A stretch of DNA of 49,713 nucleotides from Gammaproteobacteria bacterium. GTDB lineage: Bacteria; Pseudomonadota; Gammaproteobacteria; SG8-11. Positions 23,701 through 47,094 of this stretch are shown here, in pieces. The stretch covers positions 66,036 to 115,748 of the forward strand of contig JAHECY010000003.1 in the NCBI GenBank assembly GCA_024641505.1, read 5' to 3'. Within the stretch, counting starts at the first letter, position 1. The number at the start of each line of letters is the position of its first letter. A program made the translations under genes and the position numbers. The notes beneath the pieces were generated by a model. It saw only the letters and a program-made list of their open reading frames with translations. It had not been told where the DNA came from and did not search any database.

Positions 23701-23842
23701 ACTCGAAAACCTTGTTTTTCAAAGCACCGGCCAATGATTCTCTTTCGTAGCAACTAACACTTTCTGAAATAACAAAAACTTATATGGATGGATGCTCATC
23801 TTTTTAGCAATTGGAATGGATGCCGACAAAAAGGACTTCTCA

Positions 23843-26071
23843 ATGATTTTCCAATTCGGTATCGTGATGCTCTCATCCCCAGACACGCCACTAACGACCA
23901 TGCAAGAACAAATCTCTGGCGTCGACAAACTCGAACATGAAATCATCCACAACCTGCGCGATGGTCTTATTGTTTGCGATAGCATGGCGATAATCAGAGA
24001 AATAAATCCGGCGATTGAACGCCTGTTCGGCTATAGCAGCAAAGAAATTCTGGGCGCGGATATCGGTACCTTGCTTCCGGATCTGTCGCTCGCCAACTAT
24101 CGGCTTGAAAGCTCCGTATTCATGCGCTGCACGGGCATTCGTAACAACAATGACCCGTTTATCGTCGAACTGAATTTGACGGCGGTGAACATCGGCCTGA
24201 ATAGTTATTTCACCCTTGAGTTACGTGATATCTCCAATACCACACGCATCCAGGAATCGGTGTGGTCCGTGGCCCAGGAACTGGAGCAACGGGTCAATTT
24301 GCGCACCCAGGAACTGGTGCAATCCAATCAGGAATTGCGTCACCAGATTTCCGAGCGTCAAGCCATGCAAAAGGCGCTGCAGGAAAGCGAGCAACGTCTG
24401 CGCAGCGTGGTGACCAACGCACCGGTCATTCTCTTCGCCGTGGATCGCGCAGGTTGTTTCACTTTCGCCGAGGGTCGCGGCCTGGAACGCCTGGCCGTGC
24501 GCCCCGGTGACCTGGTCGGGCAATCGCTATTCAAACTATTGCGGAACCGGCCCCGTTTCAAGAAGGATTTCGCGCGCATTCTTGACGGTGAGCAAGTGAC
24601 CTCCATGATCGAGATCAACGATCTGATTTTTGAGTGCCGCTATTCGATCGTCAAAGATGCGCGACAGGAAGTGGTTGGTGTAATCGGCGTCGCCACGGAC
24701 ATCACCGAACGCAAACGGGCGGAAGAACGGCTGCTGCAACTGGCGAATTATGACAGCCTCACGAGCTTGCCCAATCGCACACTGTTCCATGATCGTCTGA
24801 CCCATGCCCTGGCCAAGGCTCGACGTCAACGCGGGCAGGTCGCCCTGCTGTTTCTGGACCTTGATCGTTTCAAAATGATCAACGACAGTCTCGGTCACCA
24901 TGCCGGCGACGAACTGCTCAAGGCCGTCGCCCAGCGCCTGCAACAAAATGCACGCAAAGGCGATACCGTTGCCCGTCTGGGCGGTGATGAATTTACCGTG
25001 ATCCTGGAAGAACTCACCCATCACGAAGACGCCACCACCGTGGCCCGCAAGATTCAGGACGTCATGAATCGACCGTTTCATATCGATGGCCACGAAATGT
25101 TCGTCACCACCAGCCTGGGAATCGCCATTTTTCCGCAGGACGGCGCGGATATCGAGGAACTGCTGAAAAACGCCGACACCGCCATGTACCGTGCCAAGGA
25201 ACAGGGACGCAACAACTACCGTTTCTACACAGCGGACATGAATGCCAAAGCGGTGGAACATCTGATCATGGAAAACCGCATCCGGCACGCATTACAGCGT
25301 AACGAGTTTATTTTATATTACCAGCCGCAAATTGATTTGCATCGTCGGGAAATCACCGGGCTCGAAGCGCTGATACGCTGGCATCACCCGGATCTTGGCC
25401 TGCTGTATCCGAACCAGTTCCTGCCGCTGGCGGAAGATACCGGCTTTATCACCGCCATCGGCGATTGGGTGCTGCACAAAGCCTGCTGGCAGGCGGCGCA
25501 GTGGCAACGTGCCGGAATGGCACCGCTGCGTATTGCGGTCAATCTGTCACCGCTGCAGTTCACGCAACCGGCACTGGTGGATAGCGTCGCCGCGGCGCTG
25601 AAAAACTCGGGACTTGACCCCGGCAATCTGGAACTTGAGATCACTGAAAACTTTCTGGTTGACAATGTCGATAACGCGATCGTGACCCTGCGTAAACTCC
25701 ATGAATTAGGCGTGCAGCTGGCCATTGACGATTTCGGCACCGGCTATTCCTCGCTGAGCTACCTGAAAAAGTTCCCGTTGAATTCCTTGAAGATCGACCG
25801 TTCCTTCGTGCGCGACATCTCCACCGACGAGGGCGATGCCGCCATCGCGGAAGCCATCATCGCCCTGGCACAGACCCTGCGCCTGCGCGTCATGGCGGAA
25901 GGCGTGGAAACCGAGGAACAACTCCATTTTCTGCGCAATCGGGGCTGTGATCAGGCCCAGGGATTCCTCATCGGCGAACCCCTGCCGCCGGAACAAGTGC
26001 CGGCCTGGTGCCTGGACACCGGCACCTATCGAGCGATCTTCGAACAGGAAATGTTCTGGCCTATCTCCTGA
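23843..26071 (+). CDS. PAS-PAS-GGDEF-EAL bifunctional c-di-GMP signalling protein
   Basis: 742 residues from ATG 23843 (AAGGA 8 bases upstream); in-frame ATGs at 23792 and 23816 are possible. Two PAS domains (~30-140, ~190-300) flank a coiled coil. The GGDEF domain has an intact LGGDEF and the inhibitory I-site RKGD five residues before it, so cyclase activity with feedback inhibition is expected. The EAL domain retains LEALIRW, AIDDFGTGYSS, LKIDRSF and AEGVETEEQL, so phosphodiesterase activity is also expected. No membrane segment is visible. Input signal and net direction are unknown. Confidence 0.92.
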   Translation: MIFQFGIVMLSSPDTPLTTMQEQISGVDKLEHEIIHNLRDGLIVCDSMAIIREINPAIERLFGYSSKEILGADIGTLLPDLSLANYRLESSVFMRCTGIRNNNDPFIVELNLTAVNIGLNSYFTLELRDISNTTRIQESVWSVAQELEQRVNLRTQELVQSNQELRHQISERQAMQKALQESEQRLRSVVTNAPVILFAVDRAGCFTFAEGRGLERLAVRPGDLVGQSLFKLLRNRPRFKKDFARILDGEQVTSMIEINDLIFECRYSIVKDARQEVVGVIGVATDITERKRAEERLLQLANYDSLTSLPNRTLFHDRLTHALAKARRQRGQVALLFLDLDRFKMINDSLGHHAGDELLKAVAQRLQQNARKGDTVARLGGDEFTVILEELTHHEDATTVARKIQDVMNRPFHIDGHEMFVTTSLGIAIFPQDGADIEELLKNADTAMYRAKEQGRNNYRFYTADMNAKAVEHLIMENRIRHALQRNEFILYYQPQIDLHRREITGLEALIRWHHPDLGLLYPNQFLPLAEDTGFITAIGDWVLHKACWQAAQWQRAGMAPLRIAVNLSPLQFTQPALVDSVAAALKNSGLDPGNLELEITENFLVDNVDNAIVTLRKLHELGVQLAIDDFGTGYSSLSYLKKFPLNSLKIDRSFVRDISTDEGDAAIAEAIIALAQTLRLRVMAEGVETEEQLHFLRNRGCDQAQGFLIGEPLPPEQVPAWCLDTGTYRAIFEQEMFWPIS

Positions 26072-26292
26072 GTCCGGCAACGCACCCTGACCCCACCGGC
26101 ACGGCACTTCGGTTCTGTGATAGCCGTCACAACCTCGGCGATTGATATTCAATATCCTACGCCGATAACTATTCTATTGATTAACCGCACGGGGATTCAC
26201 CTGAATAAATAGTCGGGAATGATTGGCAGGAATAGCCGATGTTCCCCCATGGATGTTTCAGGACCGGTCCCCGTCACCGGCAGGATGAAACA

Positions 26293-28062
26293 ATGGGCGC
26301 TGCAAAAAAATTGACCGCAAAGCGAGTCGACGCAAAACTATTGAGTCGATATCTTCCATTTCAATCCATTGAACTGGAGGACTTAAAGGCGCTGGCGAGC
26401 AAATGTCAGTTAGTCAGTTTTCCTTCTAACCGCGTGTTGTTCCGACGCGGAGATAACGATCGACGCACCTATTTTCTGGTCACGGGTGAAATTGAAATTT
26501 CATCGCGACAAATCGGCATGTTACGCCTGAAAGCGGGGACTGAAGCGGCGCGCGACGCCATCGCCGATGTGATTCCGCGGCGCGTGGAAATGCGCACCAC
26601 CCAACCCTCCACCTTCCTGGTGATCGACCGGCATTTGCTGGAAGTCATGATGGACAGCGACCTGCTAGCAAACTACCAAGTGTCCGAAATGGAAACCGAG
26701 GACAGCAATGACTGGATGACACAATTTCTCGGCTCCCTCAACACGCGCAAGGTTCCACCCCAAAACATTCAGGCCTTGCTGCTTCGTATGAAAGAATTGA
26801 TCGTACGCCCCGGCCAAATCATCGTACGCCAAAACGAAACAGACAGTTACTACTACATCATCAAGGAAGGACGCTGCGCCGTTACCCGCCATACCAGCGA
26901 ACTCGGCGAAGTCACCCTGGCAGAACTCGGTGTCGGGACCGGGTTCGGTGAGGAAGCCATCATCACCAATGGCAAACGCAACGCCACGGTGACCATGCAA
27001 GAAGCGGGCGTTATCATGCGCCTGACCAGGGACGATTTCCTGAAACTGTTGGTACGCCCGGTGGTGGACCTGGTAACTTATCCCGAGGCTGAGGAGCTGA
27101 TCACCAATGGCGGACGCTTTATCGACGTGCGCAGCCATGCCGACCGGCACGACTACCTGGAAGGCGCAATCCTGGCTCCCATGGTGGAATTACGTGAGCG
27201 TGTAAAAAAATTCTCCCCCACCACGACCTATATCGTATTCTGCGGTAACGGCCAACTCAGCGCCGCCGCCGCCTTCCTGCTGGCTCAGCACGGCCATGAA
27301 GCCTACGTATTAATGGGCGGCATCGAAAGAGTACCCCCTAACGCCAAGTTATTGCAGAGAGTGCGCCTGGGATCGGAACCGGAAACCGCGACGATCATGG
27401 ATTTTCCGGCAGCCGATGCTCTTGCAGCGGCGCCCGAACCCGACCCGCGTACCATACTAAAGAAAATCGCCCTTTCCGCCGATACTGATAGTGGTGTGGA
27501 TGCCCAGGACTATCTGGATCAGTTCGTGGGTCTCGCCCATGAGTTCAGCTTGCTGCGGCAGGATGTGACGCGCAACCAGCAGGAAATCGCGTGGTTGATG
27601 GAACGATCCCAGACCGAGGCGGACGGAGTTGTCGCACAGACGCCCACACCACCGGCCGTGCTGCGTAGCGATCTTCGGGAAGTGCCACCGGCAACGCCCA
27701 GCGATCTGGCATTGCAGCTGCGCACCACCACGGCTCAACTGAATGATTTACAAGAAAAATATTTAGGGCTGCAAGCGGACGTCAGGCGCCTCACACAAGT
27801 GCTGGCGACATTCACCCAAGCCCAGGGCAGCACGCACCCACGCACCGCCGCGGGCAACGCGGATATTTTACACATGGCGACAGGCACGGATTCTGCTAAT
27901 CGTGAAGACGACACCTATATGGAAGCCGTTCGGTCCTGGACCACTGAATTGGAACGTCAGTTGACCAAGACTGACGCCCTGAATGTTAAATCGAAGCCAG
28001 GACCGTCAACCGAGGCGCAGTCACAACATGTCCAAAGACGATTCACCAAAAAACAGCCTTAA
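26293..28062 (+). CDS. Double cNMP-binding / rhodanese / coiled-coil protein
   Basis: 589 residues from ATG 26293 (AGGA upstream); an in-frame ATG at 26239 is weaker. The order is a Crp-type domain 1 (~20-125) that lacks the phosphate-binding cassette, a Crp-type domain 2 (~145-265) with a good cassette GFGEEAI..KRNAT, and a rhodanese domain (~265-350) with active loop FCGNGQLS (Cys ~317) and trailing LMGGIERV. A Pro/Ala-rich linker and a C-terminal coiled coil (~430-530) follow. No DNA-binding helix-turn-helix is seen, so it is not a CRP-type regulator. It overlaps the next gene by 35 bases, so the products probably work together. Role unknown. Confidence 0.8.
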   Translation: MGAAKKLTAKRVDAKLLSRYLPFQSIELEDLKALASKCQLVSFPSNRVLFRRGDNDRRTYFLVTGEIEISSRQIGMLRLKAGTEAARDAIADVIPRRVEMRTTQPSTFLVIDRHLLEVMMDSDLLANYQVSEMETEDSNDWMTQFLGSLNTRKVPPQNIQALLLRMKELIVRPGQIIVRQNETDSYYYIIKEGRCAVTRHTSELGEVTLAELGVGTGFGEEAIITNGKRNATVTMQEAGVIMRLTRDDFLKLLVRPVVDLVTYPEAEELITNGGRFIDVRSHADRHDYLEGAILAPMVELRERVKKFSPTTTYIVFCGNGQLSAAAAFLLAQHGHEAYVLMGGIERVPPNAKLLQRVRLGSEPETATIMDFPAADALAAAPEPDPRTILKKIALSADTDSGVDAQDYLDQFVGLAHEFSLLRQDVTRNQQEIAWLMERSQTEADGVVAQTPTPPAVLRSDLREVPPATPSDLALQLRTTTAQLNDLQEKYLGLQADVRRLTQVLATFTQAQGSTHPRTAAGNADILHMATGTDSANREDDTYMEAVRSWTTELERQLTKTDALNVKSKPGPSTEAQSQHVQRRFTKKQP

Positions 28063-28888
28063 TGCCGACGAAGAAGAGCTGAGGAAAACTCAGCAGGACA
28101 TCATGCGCCTCAAGAAAAAGCTTGAAGCGCAACGCAAGGCTACTGAGCTGAAACAGCAGGAAATCGCCCAGAACAAGTCCCCCGCCAAAAACAGCAAGGA
28201 TTTGACGCAGAACGTCTATAACTCGGAATTCTACGCCGAACAGGGCAAGGCTGATTCGACGCCGCGCGCACCGTCCAAAGCAGGCAAAAAAGCCAAGGGT
28301 TTTATCTCGGGTGAAAATGCCTGGGAAGCCGCCTTGGATCCCGAGACCGAGGATGAACTGGAATCTCTGTTCAGCAATCGCGGCAAAGCCCAGACGCGTC
28401 CGGATTCAGCAGATTACACGACACCGCAAACGCCGGCGCCTACCGGCAACTCCACCGCGCCGCGCCCTAATAATGCGCCCGTAGATTCCGGCAAGTTCAG
28501 AATCCCGATCAACGATACGCCCGTCTCGGACCGTAATCGTGCGGTATTCGAAGCCCGCCCCATGAATCGCCAGGAACCGGGACCAACCGACAGCCGCAGC
28601 AACTTGCGCGCACGACCCGATCTGCAACGCAGGAAATGGCTGGGATTACTGATCAAGCTTGGCGTGATCCTTGGAGGCGGCATGTTGGTGTTGACACTGA
28701 TCGGAAGCCTGGGTATCTACATGGGCTGGCACAACAAACTACCTTTGAGCACAGAGCTGAAACAGACGCTTAGCGCCGCCAGAGACGAGGTATTAGGTAA
28801 GGAGCAGCCGGCGCCGGTCAAGGGGAAGGCCACCACCGCCAAGCCGCCATCAAAAATATTAAAGACACGACCGATTCCTAAAGAATAA
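28028..28888 (+). CDS. Coiled-coil, single-membrane-segment protein of unknown function
   Basis: 286 residues from ATG 28028, starting inside the preceding gene. Residues ~14-48 form a strongly charged coiled coil (EELRKTQQDIMRLKKKLEAQ). A disordered Pro/Asn/Ser-rich region follows (~50-200), containing GFISGENAWEAALDPETEDE. A single transmembrane helix is at ~206-232 (LLIKLGVILGGGMLVLTLI), and a short basic tail is likely periplasmic. No family is recognised. Topology and overlap suggest that it tethers the cNMP/rhodanese protein to the inner membrane through coiled-coil contact; this is inference. Confidence 0.65.
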   Translation: MSKDDSPKNSLNADEEELRKTQQDIMRLKKKLEAQRKATELKQQEIAQNKSPAKNSKDLTQNVYNSEFYAEQGKADSTPRAPSKAGKKAKGFISGENAWEAALDPETEDELESLFSNRGKAQTRPDSADYTTPQTPAPTGNSTAPRPNNAPVDSGKFRIPINDTPVSDRNRAVFEARPMNRQEPGPTDSRSNLRARPDLQRRKWLGLLIKLGVILGGGMLVLTLIGSLGIYMGWHNKLPLSTELKQTLSAARDEVLGKEQPAPVKGKATTAKPPSKILKTRPIPKE

Positions 28889-28915: not shown

Positions 28916-30493
28916 TCAACCTTGACGATCCCGGCGCTGGCCAAAGACATCCCCCTCACCATAAACCTGCACCTGATTGCGACCATGCTCCTTGGCATGG
29001 TACAAGGCCTGATCCGCCCTGGACAGCAACCTGGGCAGCGCGGTTTCTTCAGAATCGTCAGGACTGGAAAAGCTGACGCCACAACTCACCGTCAAAAGTA
29101 TGGTACATCCCTTATAAACGATTCTGGCGTCTTTGGTCGCAGCACGCACTTTCTCCGCCATGGCAACGGCATCCGCCGGTTCCGAGCTGATGCTTAATAC
29201 CAGGAACTCTTCCCCGCCGACACGATATAAAAAGTCATTGGATCGGGATTGTTGTTTTAAAAGTTTGGAAAACTGAATCAGACATTGATCTCCGGCCAGA
29301 TGCCCATACTGGTCATTGATCTGCTTGAAATAGTCCAGATCACAAAGGATCACCGACAGCACGCGCCAATCGCGCAGTGACTGGGCGCGTAACTTGGGAA
29401 AGATCTCCTGCAGATGGCGCCGATTGTACAGTCCAGTAAGACTGTCGGAAATCGCAGACTCTTCCAGCTGCTTGTGAATGCCGTCGATTTCAACCTGTTT
29501 GCTGCGCAGGGCATGCACCATGTCGGCGAATTTATTGGCCAGCAGCTCAATCTCATTCTGCGCATGGGACTTTTTCACCACCGGCATATCACCCTGGGTT
29601 ATTCTTTCGATCATTACCATAAGATCAACCAGAGGCCGGCTGAAGTTACGGAAGATCATGTAACCCATCCAGAGCATGGCGCCAGACCCGAAGAGCAACA
29701 CCAGCAGCGATACCCGCGTGTATTGATTCAGATTGCTTACCAGCTTGGTTTCGGAAACGCCAAACCATAATTGCGGCAGGTTTTCATCAAGCGTCGGCAA
29801 GGCAATAGGAAATACCCGGTAGATATCGCCATTCATCAAAGTGCGCTGATCCGTGATTTGAAACAGATCGCCCGCCTGATCATCGAGACTGCTGGCCAGA
29901 ACCTTGCCGTCACGCACGATAAATACTTGCCCGCCACTGTTCCGGCCTTTGTCGTTCAACCAGGTCTTGTTAAGACGGTGGCTCATCGCCACCACTCCAA
30001 GCTTGTCGCCCCGGTATGAAATAGGCACCACCGCCACCACTTCCAGACTGTCACCGGTTTGGCGGTAGTAAACACGTTCCAGAATGCTATTCCCCTGTTG
30101 CTGCACCCAACGCGCGAGATCCGCCTCGCCTCCGATCAGCAACTCCCCCTTGGCGCCGAGTATGACCGCGCTGTCCACCGGTAACCAACCATAAAGCTTC
30201 TCATAGAGCTTGCGCAGCGGCTCCTTTTCAGCACCTACGCGGTATACGATAAACAGGTATTCCTGAACCCTCAGGTCGTCGCTGACGATCCCGGCGTAAC
30301 GCAGCAGCTCATTGCGCTCATATTGTAATTGACTCTCCAACAACTGACCGGTGCGCGTGACATGCACATCAGCTTCGTTAATAATGACACTCCGGGAATA
30401 TAGGTAAGAATAAAGCAGGATCGCGCACAGAAACACCATCAGTAAAGCGCTATAGGCAATCAGCTTGGAACGATAAGTTTTAAGTATCATCAT
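28916..30493 (-). CDS. Membrane sensor diguanylate cyclase (sensor-HAMP-GGDEF)
   Basis: 525 residues. Transmembrane helix 1 (~12-33), a ~220-residue periplasmic sensor of the double-Cache style, transmembrane helix 2 (~258-285), a HAMP linker (FSRPLVDLMVMIERITQGDMP) and a GGDEF domain are in order. The catalytic motif is RVGGEEF, with I-site RSND five residues before it; ILCDLDYFKQINDQYGH precedes. It should therefore make c-di-GMP in response to a periplasmic ligand. It lies 15 bases after a PstS-like binding-protein gene, a frequent pairing in which the binding protein may present or sense the ligand. Confidence 0.9.
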   Translation of the reverse strand: MMILKTYRSKLIAYSALLMVFLCAILLYSYLYSRSVIINEADVHVTRTGQLLESQLQYERNELLRYAGIVSDDLRVQEYLFIVYRVGAEKEPLRKLYEKLYGWLPVDSAVILGAKGELLIGGEADLARWVQQQGNSILERVYYRQTGDSLEVVAVVPISYRGDKLGVVAMSHRLNKTWLNDKGRNSGGQVFIVRDGKVLASSLDDQAGDLFQITDQRTLMNGDIYRVFPIALPTLDENLPQLWFGVSETKLVSNLNQYTRVSLLVLLFGSGAMLWMGYMIFRNFSRPLVDLMVMIERITQGDMPVVKKSHAQNEIELLANKFADMVHALRSKQVEIDGIHKQLEESAISDSLTGLYNRRHLQEIFPKLRAQSLRDWRVLSVILCDLDYFKQINDQYGHLAGDQCLIQFSKLLKQQSRSNDFLYRVGGEEFLVLSISSEPADAVAMAEKVRAATKDARIVYKGCTILLTVSCGVSFSSPDDSEETALPRLLSRADQALYHAKEHGRNQVQVYGEGDVFGQRRDRQG

Positions 30494-43745: not shown

Positions 43746-46700
43746 TCAGTTCGTGGCCGCAAATTGATAATCCGCGCCCAGCATCAAACGCAACACCGAG
43801 TCCTGCCATTGAAACACAGGCTGTGCGTCGTTGGTGCGCGTAGCCGCGGCATATTGCCGCCACAACTCACGCGCGGCATCCCGACCACCATCCGCCACCA
43901 TTGCCGCCACCGTGGCGATCAGCACATAGGTCAACTGCTTTTGCGAATACGTCATATTGCCTAGCAGTATGTCCTTCCCCTGGCGCGCTACCGTCGCAGT
44001 ATCGGCAGTGGCGATGGCGTACAACAGGCCGAGCCAGGCCAGATGCTGCTCCTGAAAATCCTGGCAGGGCTGCTCCAGCGCATGGGCCAGCATGCGCACC
44101 AGCGCCGGCGGACTGGCCTGGGGTAACACGCCCAACGCGATATTGTTGAACATGACATCGACCCAATAACTCGCCTCGCCGGGCACCTGGCACCCCGCCA
44201 ACATGCTGTTAACCATGGACGCATAGGCCGACAGATCGGGTCTAAGCCCAACCGCATCGGCGCCGGTCATCTGCGCGGCCAGATCGTCGGCGGTGGCCGT
44301 CAGTTCGGTAACGCGCAAATAAGGAAAGATCGTCACCGGATCGACCGCGTTATCCGCGTGCCGGGCCAGCAGATTAAAAATCGGCACTGGGAAATAGCGC
44401 AGCCCGGGAATTTCACCGACCCCGGCGCGCAAGAACCGGGCTTTTAACGCATGCAAATCGACATAGGGATAATAGTCGCCGTTGGCAGGCACCGCGTAGG
44501 AATCAAACAACGCATGCAGCGAGTTCCGGTTACCGATCACGCGCAGGTTGAAATCACGCATATTGTGAATGCCGATACTGGCCAATTCCGCGCGCACGCC
44601 CGCATCCTCAAACAGGCGCTCGCGCGCCGGCGCGAAACTGCCCGTTTGCCGAGCCAGCAACAACATGTCACTGTCATTGGGCGTAATCACCACATAATCG
44701 CTGAACACGGTGTCCAGCGCACGTACCACCGACACCAGCACCTCGATATTGGTTTCATAAAGCTGCAACCATTGCACAAATACGCCATCGGAGCTGAGAT
44801 GGCGTGTAACATGCCGATAAAACTCCGTGGTGAACAGGCCGGCGACGCCGCTTACCCAGGGATTGGAAGGTTCCGAAAGGATGAGGTCATACTGTTTCTG
44901 ATAGGTTGAAAAAAACGTCTTGGCGTCATCGATGTAGATATGGCTGCGCGGGTCATTATATGCCCGCGCCACCCGGAACATGAATTGACGGGCGCCGGTG
45001 ATCATGGCTTGCTCGATTTCCACGGTATCCACCGCCTGCAAGGTGCTCGCCGCCAGTAACGCATGGGTACTCAGTCCCGACCCGAAACCAATGGCCGCCG
45101 CCTGACGCGGCGGCTCCATAAAAGCCAGGGGCGCCAGCGCCGCCAACACCATGGTCGGTTCGTCGCCGGAGTATATAGGCTCGTCACCGCTGTAGATACT
45201 GGCGTCCACTTTGCCGTTGGTGCGGATACCGACCAGATGTTGCTTATCCTTAATCACATCGATCGTGGCGGTCTTGCCGTCCTGGTGATAAACGTGCGTG
45301 TAGTCTTCCGGGTTCATCATGATGCCACCGCGGTACACGCCCGATAACATCTTATTGAGATCCAGTTGCGCACCCGCGGCGATCACGGCGAACAGCACCC
45401 ACGCCGCCGTCAGCGCCCGCCAGGGCAGCGGTTGCCGCGCCACGACCTGCAGGTAGCCCCATAACGCTCCCCCCAGCATGACATCGATGGCGGCACCCAC
45501 TACCAGCAGACCTTTGAGGCCGAACACCGGGAAACCAATATGCACCGCGAAGAACACGCCGATGATCGCGCCCAGGGTATTGAACGCATAAACACTGCCG
45601 ATGGCCTTCTCACCGACACCTCTGGCAAGCAACGCGAAAGTAATGAGCGGCAGGGTCATGCCGGCGCAGATGGTCGCGGGCAGCATCACCAATAACGCCA
45701 GCCCATGGCTGACCGCCTGAAACTGAAAATATCCCGCAGCATCTTTTCCCACTGCCTGCATCAGCCAGCGCATGACATCAAAGGTCTGGTTGTAACTGAG
45801 CAGCGTCGTTATCGCCAGCAACCCCATCACCACCTGTACCCATGCCAGGAAACCGAGGATATTCGCGATCGCTTGCACACGGCGCCGAATCCACCAGCCG
45901 CCGAGCGCCAGACCGAGTATAAACGCGCTGAGCATCAGCTCGAACGAATGGGTGGCGCCACCCATGACCAGGCTGAGCATGCGTATCCACACCACCTCGT
46001 AAATAAACGAGGCGGCGCCGGTACCCAGCGCCACCAGCAGCAGCAATCGAAAATAACCGCGGTCGGAAGGTTCCATCGCCGGCTTTTCAGCCGCCACCGC
46101 TGCCGCTTCATGACCGCCGGTGTGGCGCTGCAAGTACCAGGCGGCCAAAGCCACGGCAATATTCAGCAGTCCCGCGCTGCGCAGGGTACCGGGCAGACCG
46201 AACCAATCCAACAGCAGGAATCCGGAAACCAATACGCCAACGGCGGCGCCGATGCTATTACTGAAATACAAGGTGGCAATCACGCGCCCGGAAGCATCGG
46301 GAAAGCGTCGAATCACGCCGGCGCTCATCATCGGAAAGGTCATGCCCAATAATACCGACTGGGGCAATATCAGCAGGGCGCTGACGGACCATTTGAATAT
46401 GGTAATGGGTAATGGCGCTCCCAGCGCCGGAATCAACACATCGTAGGATAGGGCCAGCCCGCTGGCGAACACCTCATGGAATGCAAAGGCAAGCAAGCCG
46501 ATGACGCCCTCAACCAGCGCATAACCCAGAATCAGATTACGCCAACGCTTGCCGTAACGCGCGCACACCCAGGAGCCCAACGCCATACCGCCCATGAAGA
46601 TGGCCAGCACCAGCGTCTGGGCATAGGCCGCATGCCCGAGAAACAATTTTAAGTAATGGGTCCAGATGGATTCATAGATCAATCCCGCAAACCCGGAGAT

Positions 46701-46763
46701 TGTAAACAAACAGAAAAAAACCAGAGGTGTAGTGGCAAATCTTTGTAACAACCGCTGATTCAT
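43746..46763 (-). CDS. Fused MFS-like membrane / spermidine-synthase-like protein
   Basis: 1005 residues from ATG 46763 with GAGG 7-8 bases upstream; a longer frame to 46859 is not supported. Residues ~15-490 form about 14 hydrophobic helices of the fused MFS/spermidine synthase type (ISGFAGLIYESIWTHYLKL, repeated as SFIYEVVWIRMLSLVMGG). Residues ~500-760 are a spermidine-synthase-like Rossmann domain with GFGSGLSTHALL, VEIEQAMI and LILSEPSNPWVSGVAGLF. The C-terminal ~240 residues are helical and unassigned. A heptapeptide IYSGDEP is duplicated in tandem. Substrate unknown; aminopropyl transfer should not be assumed. Confidence 0.82.
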   Translation of the reverse strand: MNQRLLQRFATTPLVFFCLFTISGFAGLIYESIWTHYLKLFLGHAAYAQTLVLAIFMGGMALGSWVCARYGKRWRNLILGYALVEGVIGLLAFAFHEVFASGLALSYDVLIPALGAPLPITIFKWSVSALLILPQSVLLGMTFPMMSAGVIRRFPDASGRVIATLYFSNSIGAAVGVLVSGFLLLDWFGLPGTLRSAGLLNIAVALAAWYLQRHTGGHEAAAVAAEKPAMEPSDRGYFRLLLLVALGTGAASFIYEVVWIRMLSLVMGGATHSFELMLSAFILGLALGGWWIRRRVQAIANILGFLAWVQVVMGLLAITTLLSYNQTFDVMRWLMQAVGKDAAGYFQFQAVSHGLALLVMLPATICAGMTLPLITFALLARGVGEKAIGSVYAFNTLGAIIGVFFAVHIGFPVFGLKGLLVVGAAIDVMLGGALWGYLQVVARQPLPWRALTAAWVLFAVIAAGAQLDLNKMLSGVYRGGIMMNPEDYTHVYHQDGKTATIDVIKDKQHLVGIRTNGKVDASIYSGDEPIYSGDEPTMVLAALAPLAFMEPPRQAAAIGFGSGLSTHALLAASTLQAVDTVEIEQAMITGARQFMFRVARAYNDPRSHIYIDDAKTFFSTYQKQYDLILSEPSNPWVSGVAGLFTTEFYRHVTRHLSSDGVFVQWLQLYETNIEVLVSVVRALDTVFSDYVVITPNDSDMLLLARQTGSFAPARERLFEDAGVRAELASIGIHNMRDFNLRVIGNRNSLHALFDSYAVPANGDYYPYVDLHALKARFLRAGVGEIPGLRYFPVPIFNLLARHADNAVDPVTIFPYLRVTELTATADDLAAQMTGADAVGLRPDLSAYASMVNSMLAGCQVPGEASYWVDVMFNNIALGVLPQASPPALVRMLAHALEQPCQDFQEQHLAWLGLLYAIATADTATVARQGKDILLGNMTYSQKQLTYVLIATVAAMVADGGRDAARELWRQYAAATRTNDAQPVFQWQDSVLRLMLGADYQFAATN
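45156..45197 (-). repeat. Tandem 21-bp coding repeat encoding IYSGDEP twice
   Basis: Units 45156-45176 and 45177-45197 differ at 6 of 21 bases, yet both encode IYSGDEP. All differences are synonymous (CCG/CCT, GAA/GAG, GGC/GGT, TCC/AGC, ATA/ATC). Confidence 0.85.
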
Positions 46764-47094
46764 CCTGTGACCTCGACGACGCGCTGTGGAATCCTGGTGG
46801 GCATTGTACTCGAAATAGCCAGCCGAGGAAAAAACCCATGACCGGTGCCGCGCCCGCAACCCGCTACCTCAACGCAGGGCAGGTCGTCACCTGACACACG
46901 TCACACCCCATAGCCCCCGCTGCATCGACCATCGCGCGCGATCATGCACCACACAAAGCCGACAGCGGATGCGACTAACGCAAAAAGTCCAGGCTGGCGG
47001 CGCGCGAATCTCACGCGCCTGTGGAAAAATCTGCTACTCTTGTTACTTCCTTAGCATCGTAACGTGCGTTGGCCCAGGGGGCGGGAGGTAACTC
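46764..47094. other. Intergenic region between divergent membrane-protein genes
   Basis: 331 bases expected to hold divergent promoters. I see a possible extended -10 TGCTACTCT near 47030 for the plus-strand gene, but no good -35. No RNA gene or repeat was found. Confidence 0.35.

Follow-up and report, generated by a model that had tools for sequence, protein, structure and literature searches.

Bacterial cAMP has been studied mainly through Crp-type transcription factors. In Pycsar systems, a receptor with a cyclic nucleotide-binding domain (cNBD) is paired with a class III-type cyclase (PMC11224242). The combination of a cNBD with a rhodanese domain occupies one table line, with bacterial proteins entered under 'Other_bacterial', in the part of Kannan et al. 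(2007; PMC2246266) that concerns it. That part assigns these proteins no function, membrane-anchored branch, split form or cyclase linkage. A search of the open-access literature returned one passing mention, and no named family or study of the whole architecture. Similarly, no NCBIfam family scored above its cutoff for either protein described below, or for the longer homologues scanned.

Here we describe two overlapping genes, A and B, in a gammaproteobacterial stretch of DNA of 49,713 nucleotides (hereafter the window). The features are listed in Table 1. An earlier sequence-only reading had described a 589-residue A protein with two cNBDs, a phosphate cassette in the second of these only and the rhodanese loop CGNGQLS, followed after a 35-base overlap by a B protein with a single transmembrane (TM) helix. 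This layout is borne out by Pfam, AlphaFold2 and hydropathy. The open reading frame of gene A spans 26239-28062. The start was placed at 26293 because AGGATGA lies just upstream and the same first residue is found in G001, a genome of the same genus.

Table 1. Features of the A/B locus and its flanking genes, in window coordinates.
Feature	Position	Strand	Remarks
PAS-GGDEF-EAL gene, upstream	23792..26071	+	Syntenic in G001, G003, G004
Gene A, tandem cNBD - rhodanese - C-terminal helices	26293..28062	+	589 aa; Pfam, AlphaFold2, start as in G001
cNBD1 (residues about 14-130), degenerate phosphate cassette	26332..26682	+	Pfam, alignment, AlphaFold2
cNBD2 (residues about 141-257), canonical cassette	26713..27063	+	Pfam, alignment, AlphaFold2
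Phosphate-binding cassette FGEEAIITNGKRNATV of cNBD2 (residues 218-233)	26944..26991	+	FGE and Arg present
Rhodanese domain (residues about 259-347)	27067..27333	+	Pfam PF00581, 5e-9; AlphaFold2 pLDDT about 88-97
Rhodanese Cys317, loop CGNGQLS	27241..27243	+	Cys conserved: 32/33 and 65/69 relatives
C-terminal helical region of A, presumed coiled coil	27502..27990	+	AlphaFold2 helices 404-448, 469-512, 516-566
Gene B, helix - linker - single TM - short periplasmic tail	28028..28888	+	286 aa; homologous to fused C-termini
A/B overlap, 35 nt exactly	28028..28062	+	Includes ACCAAAAAACA
N-terminal charged helix of B, presumed coiled coil	28061..28165	+	Aligns with end of fused coiled coil (RLKKKLEAQRKATELKQQE)
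FISGENAWEAAL motif of B	28301..28336	+	Counterpart GWISDALLWETTLG / GWISDSILWETTIG in fused relatives
Single TM helix of B (residues about 205-234)	28640..28729	+	Hydropathy 2.33 (best 19-residue mean)
HAMP-GGDEF gene, convergent, downstream	28916..30493	-	Syntenic in G001, G003, G004

In Pfam scans, A matched cNMP_binding in two stretches (4.4e-25; PF00027, 87.9 bits against a curated cutoff of 27.5) and Rhodanese (5e-9; PF00581, 37.0 bits, cutoff 22.2), with the active-site Cys present. An AlphaFold2 model was built on a 69-sequence alignment, and gave block pLDDT values of about 88-98 for both cNBDs and the rhodanese domain. The long helices modelled after residue 404 are likely to form a coiled coil. 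This helical region has 33% identity to its counterpart in G001 and is much shorter than in the fused relatives described below.

The best structural and sequence matches of A are to PKA-R and PKG. Foldseek placed the tandem cNBDs of PKG/PKA-R at the top (E about 1e-17), and A likewise has two cNBDs in series. Conversely, Pfam detected no kinase or dimerisation/docking domain in A. Furthermore, cNBD1 has lost FGE, and a rhodanese domain, coiled coil and TM follow the cNBDs. With Crp/Fnr proteins A shares the cNBD fold and cassette. However, no helix-turn-helix DNA-binding domain was detected by the Pfam scan of A; the rhodanese domain and helices are in that place. By domain content, A is not a transcription factor.

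Conservation was counted in 33 family members collected without motif bias. These counts are used here because alignment A2 was biased; its search required FGEEAL. The sequence-only reading had taken loss of cassette residues, or of the rhodanese Cys, in close relatives to speak against it. In cNBD2, F218, G219 and R229 are present in 33/33 members and E220 in 31/33, having been lost in two distant short-type proteins. For the rhodanese domain D278, R280 and Cys317 are each kept in at least 32 of the 33. L049 (G000:C176), a short paralogue in the same genome as the window, has lost the Cys and kept the cNBD2 cassette. The stretch of cNBD1 aligned to the cassette is EAARDAIADVIPRRVE, where FGE is missing and the Arg is kept. 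Across the family, FGE is absent from cNBD1, the position of the ribose-binding Glu is often R or K, and PR is mostly retained. Hence, cNBD1 looks like a conserved pseudo-site. The rhodanese domain may be either a sulfur-binding or a protein-binding module.

Of 369 genomes sampled from the class, 169 carry the cNBD-cNBD-rhodanese core (E<=1e-20). In a phylum-wide draw it was found in 14 of 200 genomes, nine of these also being Gammaproteobacteria. GTDB yielded at least 546 relatives, of which 80 were kept, mostly titled as gammaproteobacterial MAGs. Two builds were apparent. Short members are soluble and of about 355 aa. Long members, of roughly 900-1900 aa, consist of the core, a long coiled coil, one TM near the C-terminus and a low-complexity tail; some end in a C-terminal FGE-sulfatase domain. 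A tree built from 110 cores unites the long TM proteins that lack FGE in a single group of 30 rows (SH-aLRT 99). The family is common but unstudied, and combines a near-invariant cyclic-nucleotide pocket with the lack of a DNA-binding domain. One branch of it is membrane-tethered, and its genes are linked to a single kind of adenylate cyclase.

This cyclase carries an FHA domain and is of class III. Downstream sequence of 4 kb or more was available for 15 long-type loci, and 13 of these have the FHA-cyclase gene 1.5-5.6 kb downstream, on the opposite strand. It was near none of 42 comparable short-type loci, one of which has a CHASE2 cyclase. The FHA cyclase is rare in the class (14/369 genomes); all 14 of these genomes also carry the cNBD-rhodanese family, compared with 169/369 overall. 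The long gene and the FHA cyclase also occur together in an isolate, Thiohalophilus thiocyanatoxydans (L112). At the window locus the cyclase is not linked. Its orthologue in the same genome (47% identity) sits on contig C166. The closest PDB entries are adenylate cyclases such as CyaB, and the protein has the metal Asp pair, an adenine-type Lys and the sequence VNLAFRLES. Seven class III cyclase matches, and none of class I, were found in this genome. The near-invariant cNBD2 cassette, the FHA-adenylate cyclase linkage in relatives and the cyclase content of the genome together make cAMP the likeliest ligand of cNBD2, as a best guess. The cassette and the linkage also favour the cyclic-nucleotide role proposed in the sequence-only reading. 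DUF2914, NERD and 138-aa proteins are conserved, with the FHA-adenylate cyclase, downstream of long-type genes (L073:10619-13241 and equivalents).

The genes that flank A/B in the window concern a different nucleotide. Three signalling genes within 5 kb had been proposed; the PAS-GGDEF-EAL and HAMP-GGDEF genes are clear, and candidates for a third encode a PBP_like_2 protein and a metallophosphatase. Like Clp-type Crp proteins, the head of A could sense c-di-GMP rather than cAMP, and so work with the GGDEF-EAL and GGDEF enzymes encoded on either side, whose genes keep their synteny in four genomes of the family. However, the cassette is the standard one for cyclic mononucleotides, and is the same as in relatives with a conserved adenylate cyclase neighbour. 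In addition, the c-di-GMP neighbours are conserved in family f1 and were not beside the homologues examined from other families. Because their conservation is confined in this way, they tell little about the ligand. We consider sensing of c-di-GMP by A to be unlikely.

The relation between A and B is clarified by other genera. In G003, from another genus of the same taxonomic family, the syntenic gene is a single ORF of 1301 aa, in the order cNBD-cNBD-rhodanese-coiled coil-TM-tail. Its neighbours are PAS-GGDEF-EAL on one side and the convergent HAMP-GGDEF on the other, as for A and B in the window. In G004, from a third genus, the two halves lie at separate contig ends, the N-terminal one next to PAS-GGDEF-EAL and the C-terminal one next to HAMP-GGDEF. 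This gene is presumably the fused form, interrupted by the contig break. B aligns lengthwise with the C-termini from G003 and G004, through the helix KLEAQRKA, QNVY, the FISGENAWEAAL motif (GWISDALLWETTLG), AVFEAR (SVFEAR) and the TM. A profile of the fused C-terminus, made from G003 and G004 only and excluding B, matched the window B at E=4.8e-6 and the G001 B at 1.4e-4. Among the remaining ORFs of these loci and 500 shuffled sequences, the best decoy scored 0.54. In the core tree, the window pair is inside the long-TM clade (SH-aLRT 99) and beside the fused proteins of the family (90, an open fork). A alone does not have the coiled coil and single C-terminal TM of the one-chain proteins; A and B have them jointly.

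Taken together, the syntenic one-chain gene, the profile match to B and the position in the tree indicate a gene fission at the level of the genus. Fission is the simplest direction since, on the tree, the split forms are nested among fused ones. The split form is carried by two genomes only, those of the window and G001. By the Rosetta-stone argument, the fused homologues are a strong reason to infer that A and B associate. The membrane-tethered unit of the sequence-only reading is supported by the one-chain gene of the two other genera. Homologues without the second gene, which that reading had held to count against a pair, do exist. Most belong to the separate soluble branch of ~355 aa, and the true orthologues carry the B sequence in-chain.

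In G001, A and B are also separate, with an overlap much like that of the window and with both reading frames, which differ, retained. Identity between the window and G001 is 56% for A and 52% for B. The corresponding pN values are 0.29 and 0.34, and the pS values 0.70 and 0.69, with synonymous change near saturation. By this measure, both genes are under purifying selection. The pair is not due to chance, since both genes are conserved in G001 with synonymous change far in excess of amino-acid change. At the C-terminal end of A the residues QRRFTKKQ, including ACCAAAAAACA, are identical; the ends of A then differ. Differences within the overlap are silent in the A frame (AGA/AGG, TTC/TTT, CAG/CAA) and alter residues in the B frame (D/G, S/L, S/N). 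The TM of B has 6 K/R in the 15 residues before it and 2 in the 15 after. Because of this Arg/Lys-rich N-terminal flank, B is predicted to be N-in, C-out. Rfam gave no match near the A/B locus, and promoter and terminator counts there were no better than for shuffles.

The split could be real and the halves no longer cooperate, with B a membrane protein in its own right that only shares a transcript with A. Such an outcome would suit the different frames of A and B and the poorly conserved coiled-coil part of A. Conversely, the overlap and both frames have been kept in G001, with QRRFTKKQ identical, and selection is purifying on both genes. We therefore give an independent B little probability. 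It is less probable still, and by some distance, that A and B are in part still produced as a single chain, through frameshifting or slippage on the conserved ACCAAAAAACA of the overlap. Both species have the same A6 run with the same flanks, and a +1 shift at this point would fuse A to B. However, passing from A to B requires a +1 or -2 shift, whereas slippage is normally by -1; a run of six A is short for it, and B has its own ATG upstream. Pycsar receptors (PycTIR, PycTM) resemble A in being cNBD receptors with a class III-type cyclase partner, but here there is no toxic effector domain and the cyclase resembles adenylate cyclases. A Pycsar-like antiphage effector, formed by a cNMP-binding domain and a membrane part, is hardly credible: weak domain-level PADLOC matches pair A with PycTIR and the FHA cyclase with PycC, but those in A are confined to the cNBD part, there is no TIR or PycTM match, B and a long-type homologue gave no PADLOC match, synteny in the family is vertical and the cyclase has adenine-type residues.

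We consider it probable that A and B derive from a single ancestral bitopic membrane protein, of which each is now one half, and that A is a cyclic-nucleotide sensor tethered by B. The ancestral protein would have been split into overlapping genes within the genus of the window. B would hold the pair at the inner membrane, by means of a cytoplasmic coiled-coil contact to A, one TM helix and a short outside tail. A would be the cytoplasmic sensor head. Its cNBD2 may bind a cyclic mononucleotide, most likely cAMP from a class III cyclase, for example the FHA-adenylate cyclase of the genome. The pseudo-site in cNBD1 could relay the ligand-driven change, which would then reach the membrane and beyond by way of the coiled coil. 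The rhodanese domain, with its reactive Cys, might provide a second, persulfide-type input or an output surface. Tethering and a nucleotide role are retained from the sequence-only interpretation; for coupling to sulfur or redox signals, the conserved rhodanese Cys is the one point in favour. Several observations count against the bitopic sensor. The FHA cyclase is unlinked at the window locus, where two c-di-GMP genes are found instead, and the coiled coil of A is short as well as poorly conserved. To these are added the Cys loss in L049, the loss of E220, the contig break in G004 and the small number of split genomes (two). The fused relatives are a ready test of the role of the split pair.

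A lead to the output comes from the long type. Directly upstream of many long-type genes (L073, L075, L076, L084, L141 and others) is a TPR-TPR-ExbB-ExbD-ExbD-TonB cluster. In the part of PMC3169522 that sets out the AglRQS/Glt core complex of Gammaproteobacteria, the composition is the same; a cNBD protein is not among the components given there. In the window the cluster is unlinked, and the genome has two ExbB+TonB clusters, on other contigs. We regard the cluster as a lead, not as evidence for the window locus. No match to the DUF2914, NERD and 138-aa proteins or the ExbB/ExbD/TonB set of long-type relatives was found within the window, where their beta-barrel companion had only a negligible match. 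The 138-aa companion was not found in family f1 genomes. A broader proposal is speculative, and in its entirety rather unlikely. The family may represent a cAMP receptor, widespread in Gammaproteobacteria and distinct from the transcription factors, in which a PKA-R-like tandem cNBD and a persulfide-reactive rhodanese, anchored at the inner membrane, let an FHA-adenylate cyclase control an AglRQS/Glt-type envelope machine, with a split version in the genus of the window.

Other features of the family, and of the window, were observed. A motif between the coiled coil and TM of long-type proteins, GRIILEGEEDIFIFKEP, is strongly conserved (L112 residues about 815-837 and equivalents); its D, F, F and P are invariant in 16 long-type proteins. 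The AlphaFold2 model of the one-chain L112 protein (mean pLDDT 67, pTM 0.32) is too poor beyond the head to inform on docking or the TM; at most it points to a short beta element in the DIFIF motif. The FGE-sulfatase domain follows the TM in L042, L043, L046, L111 and L121, a branch of the long type. Given this location, the enzyme-like domain would be periplasmic. Another long-type gene, at L072:6968-11164, is broken into ORFs of 481 and 856 aa with a stop between them, by either a real split or an assembly error. Short soluble members, L067, L085 and L143 among them, have glnK/amtB, aroE or PilZ-holB as neighbours. Elsewhere in the window, positions 43749-46859 of the minus strand encode a 1037-aa protein that is unassigned except for a spermine-synthase domain at residues 577-721.
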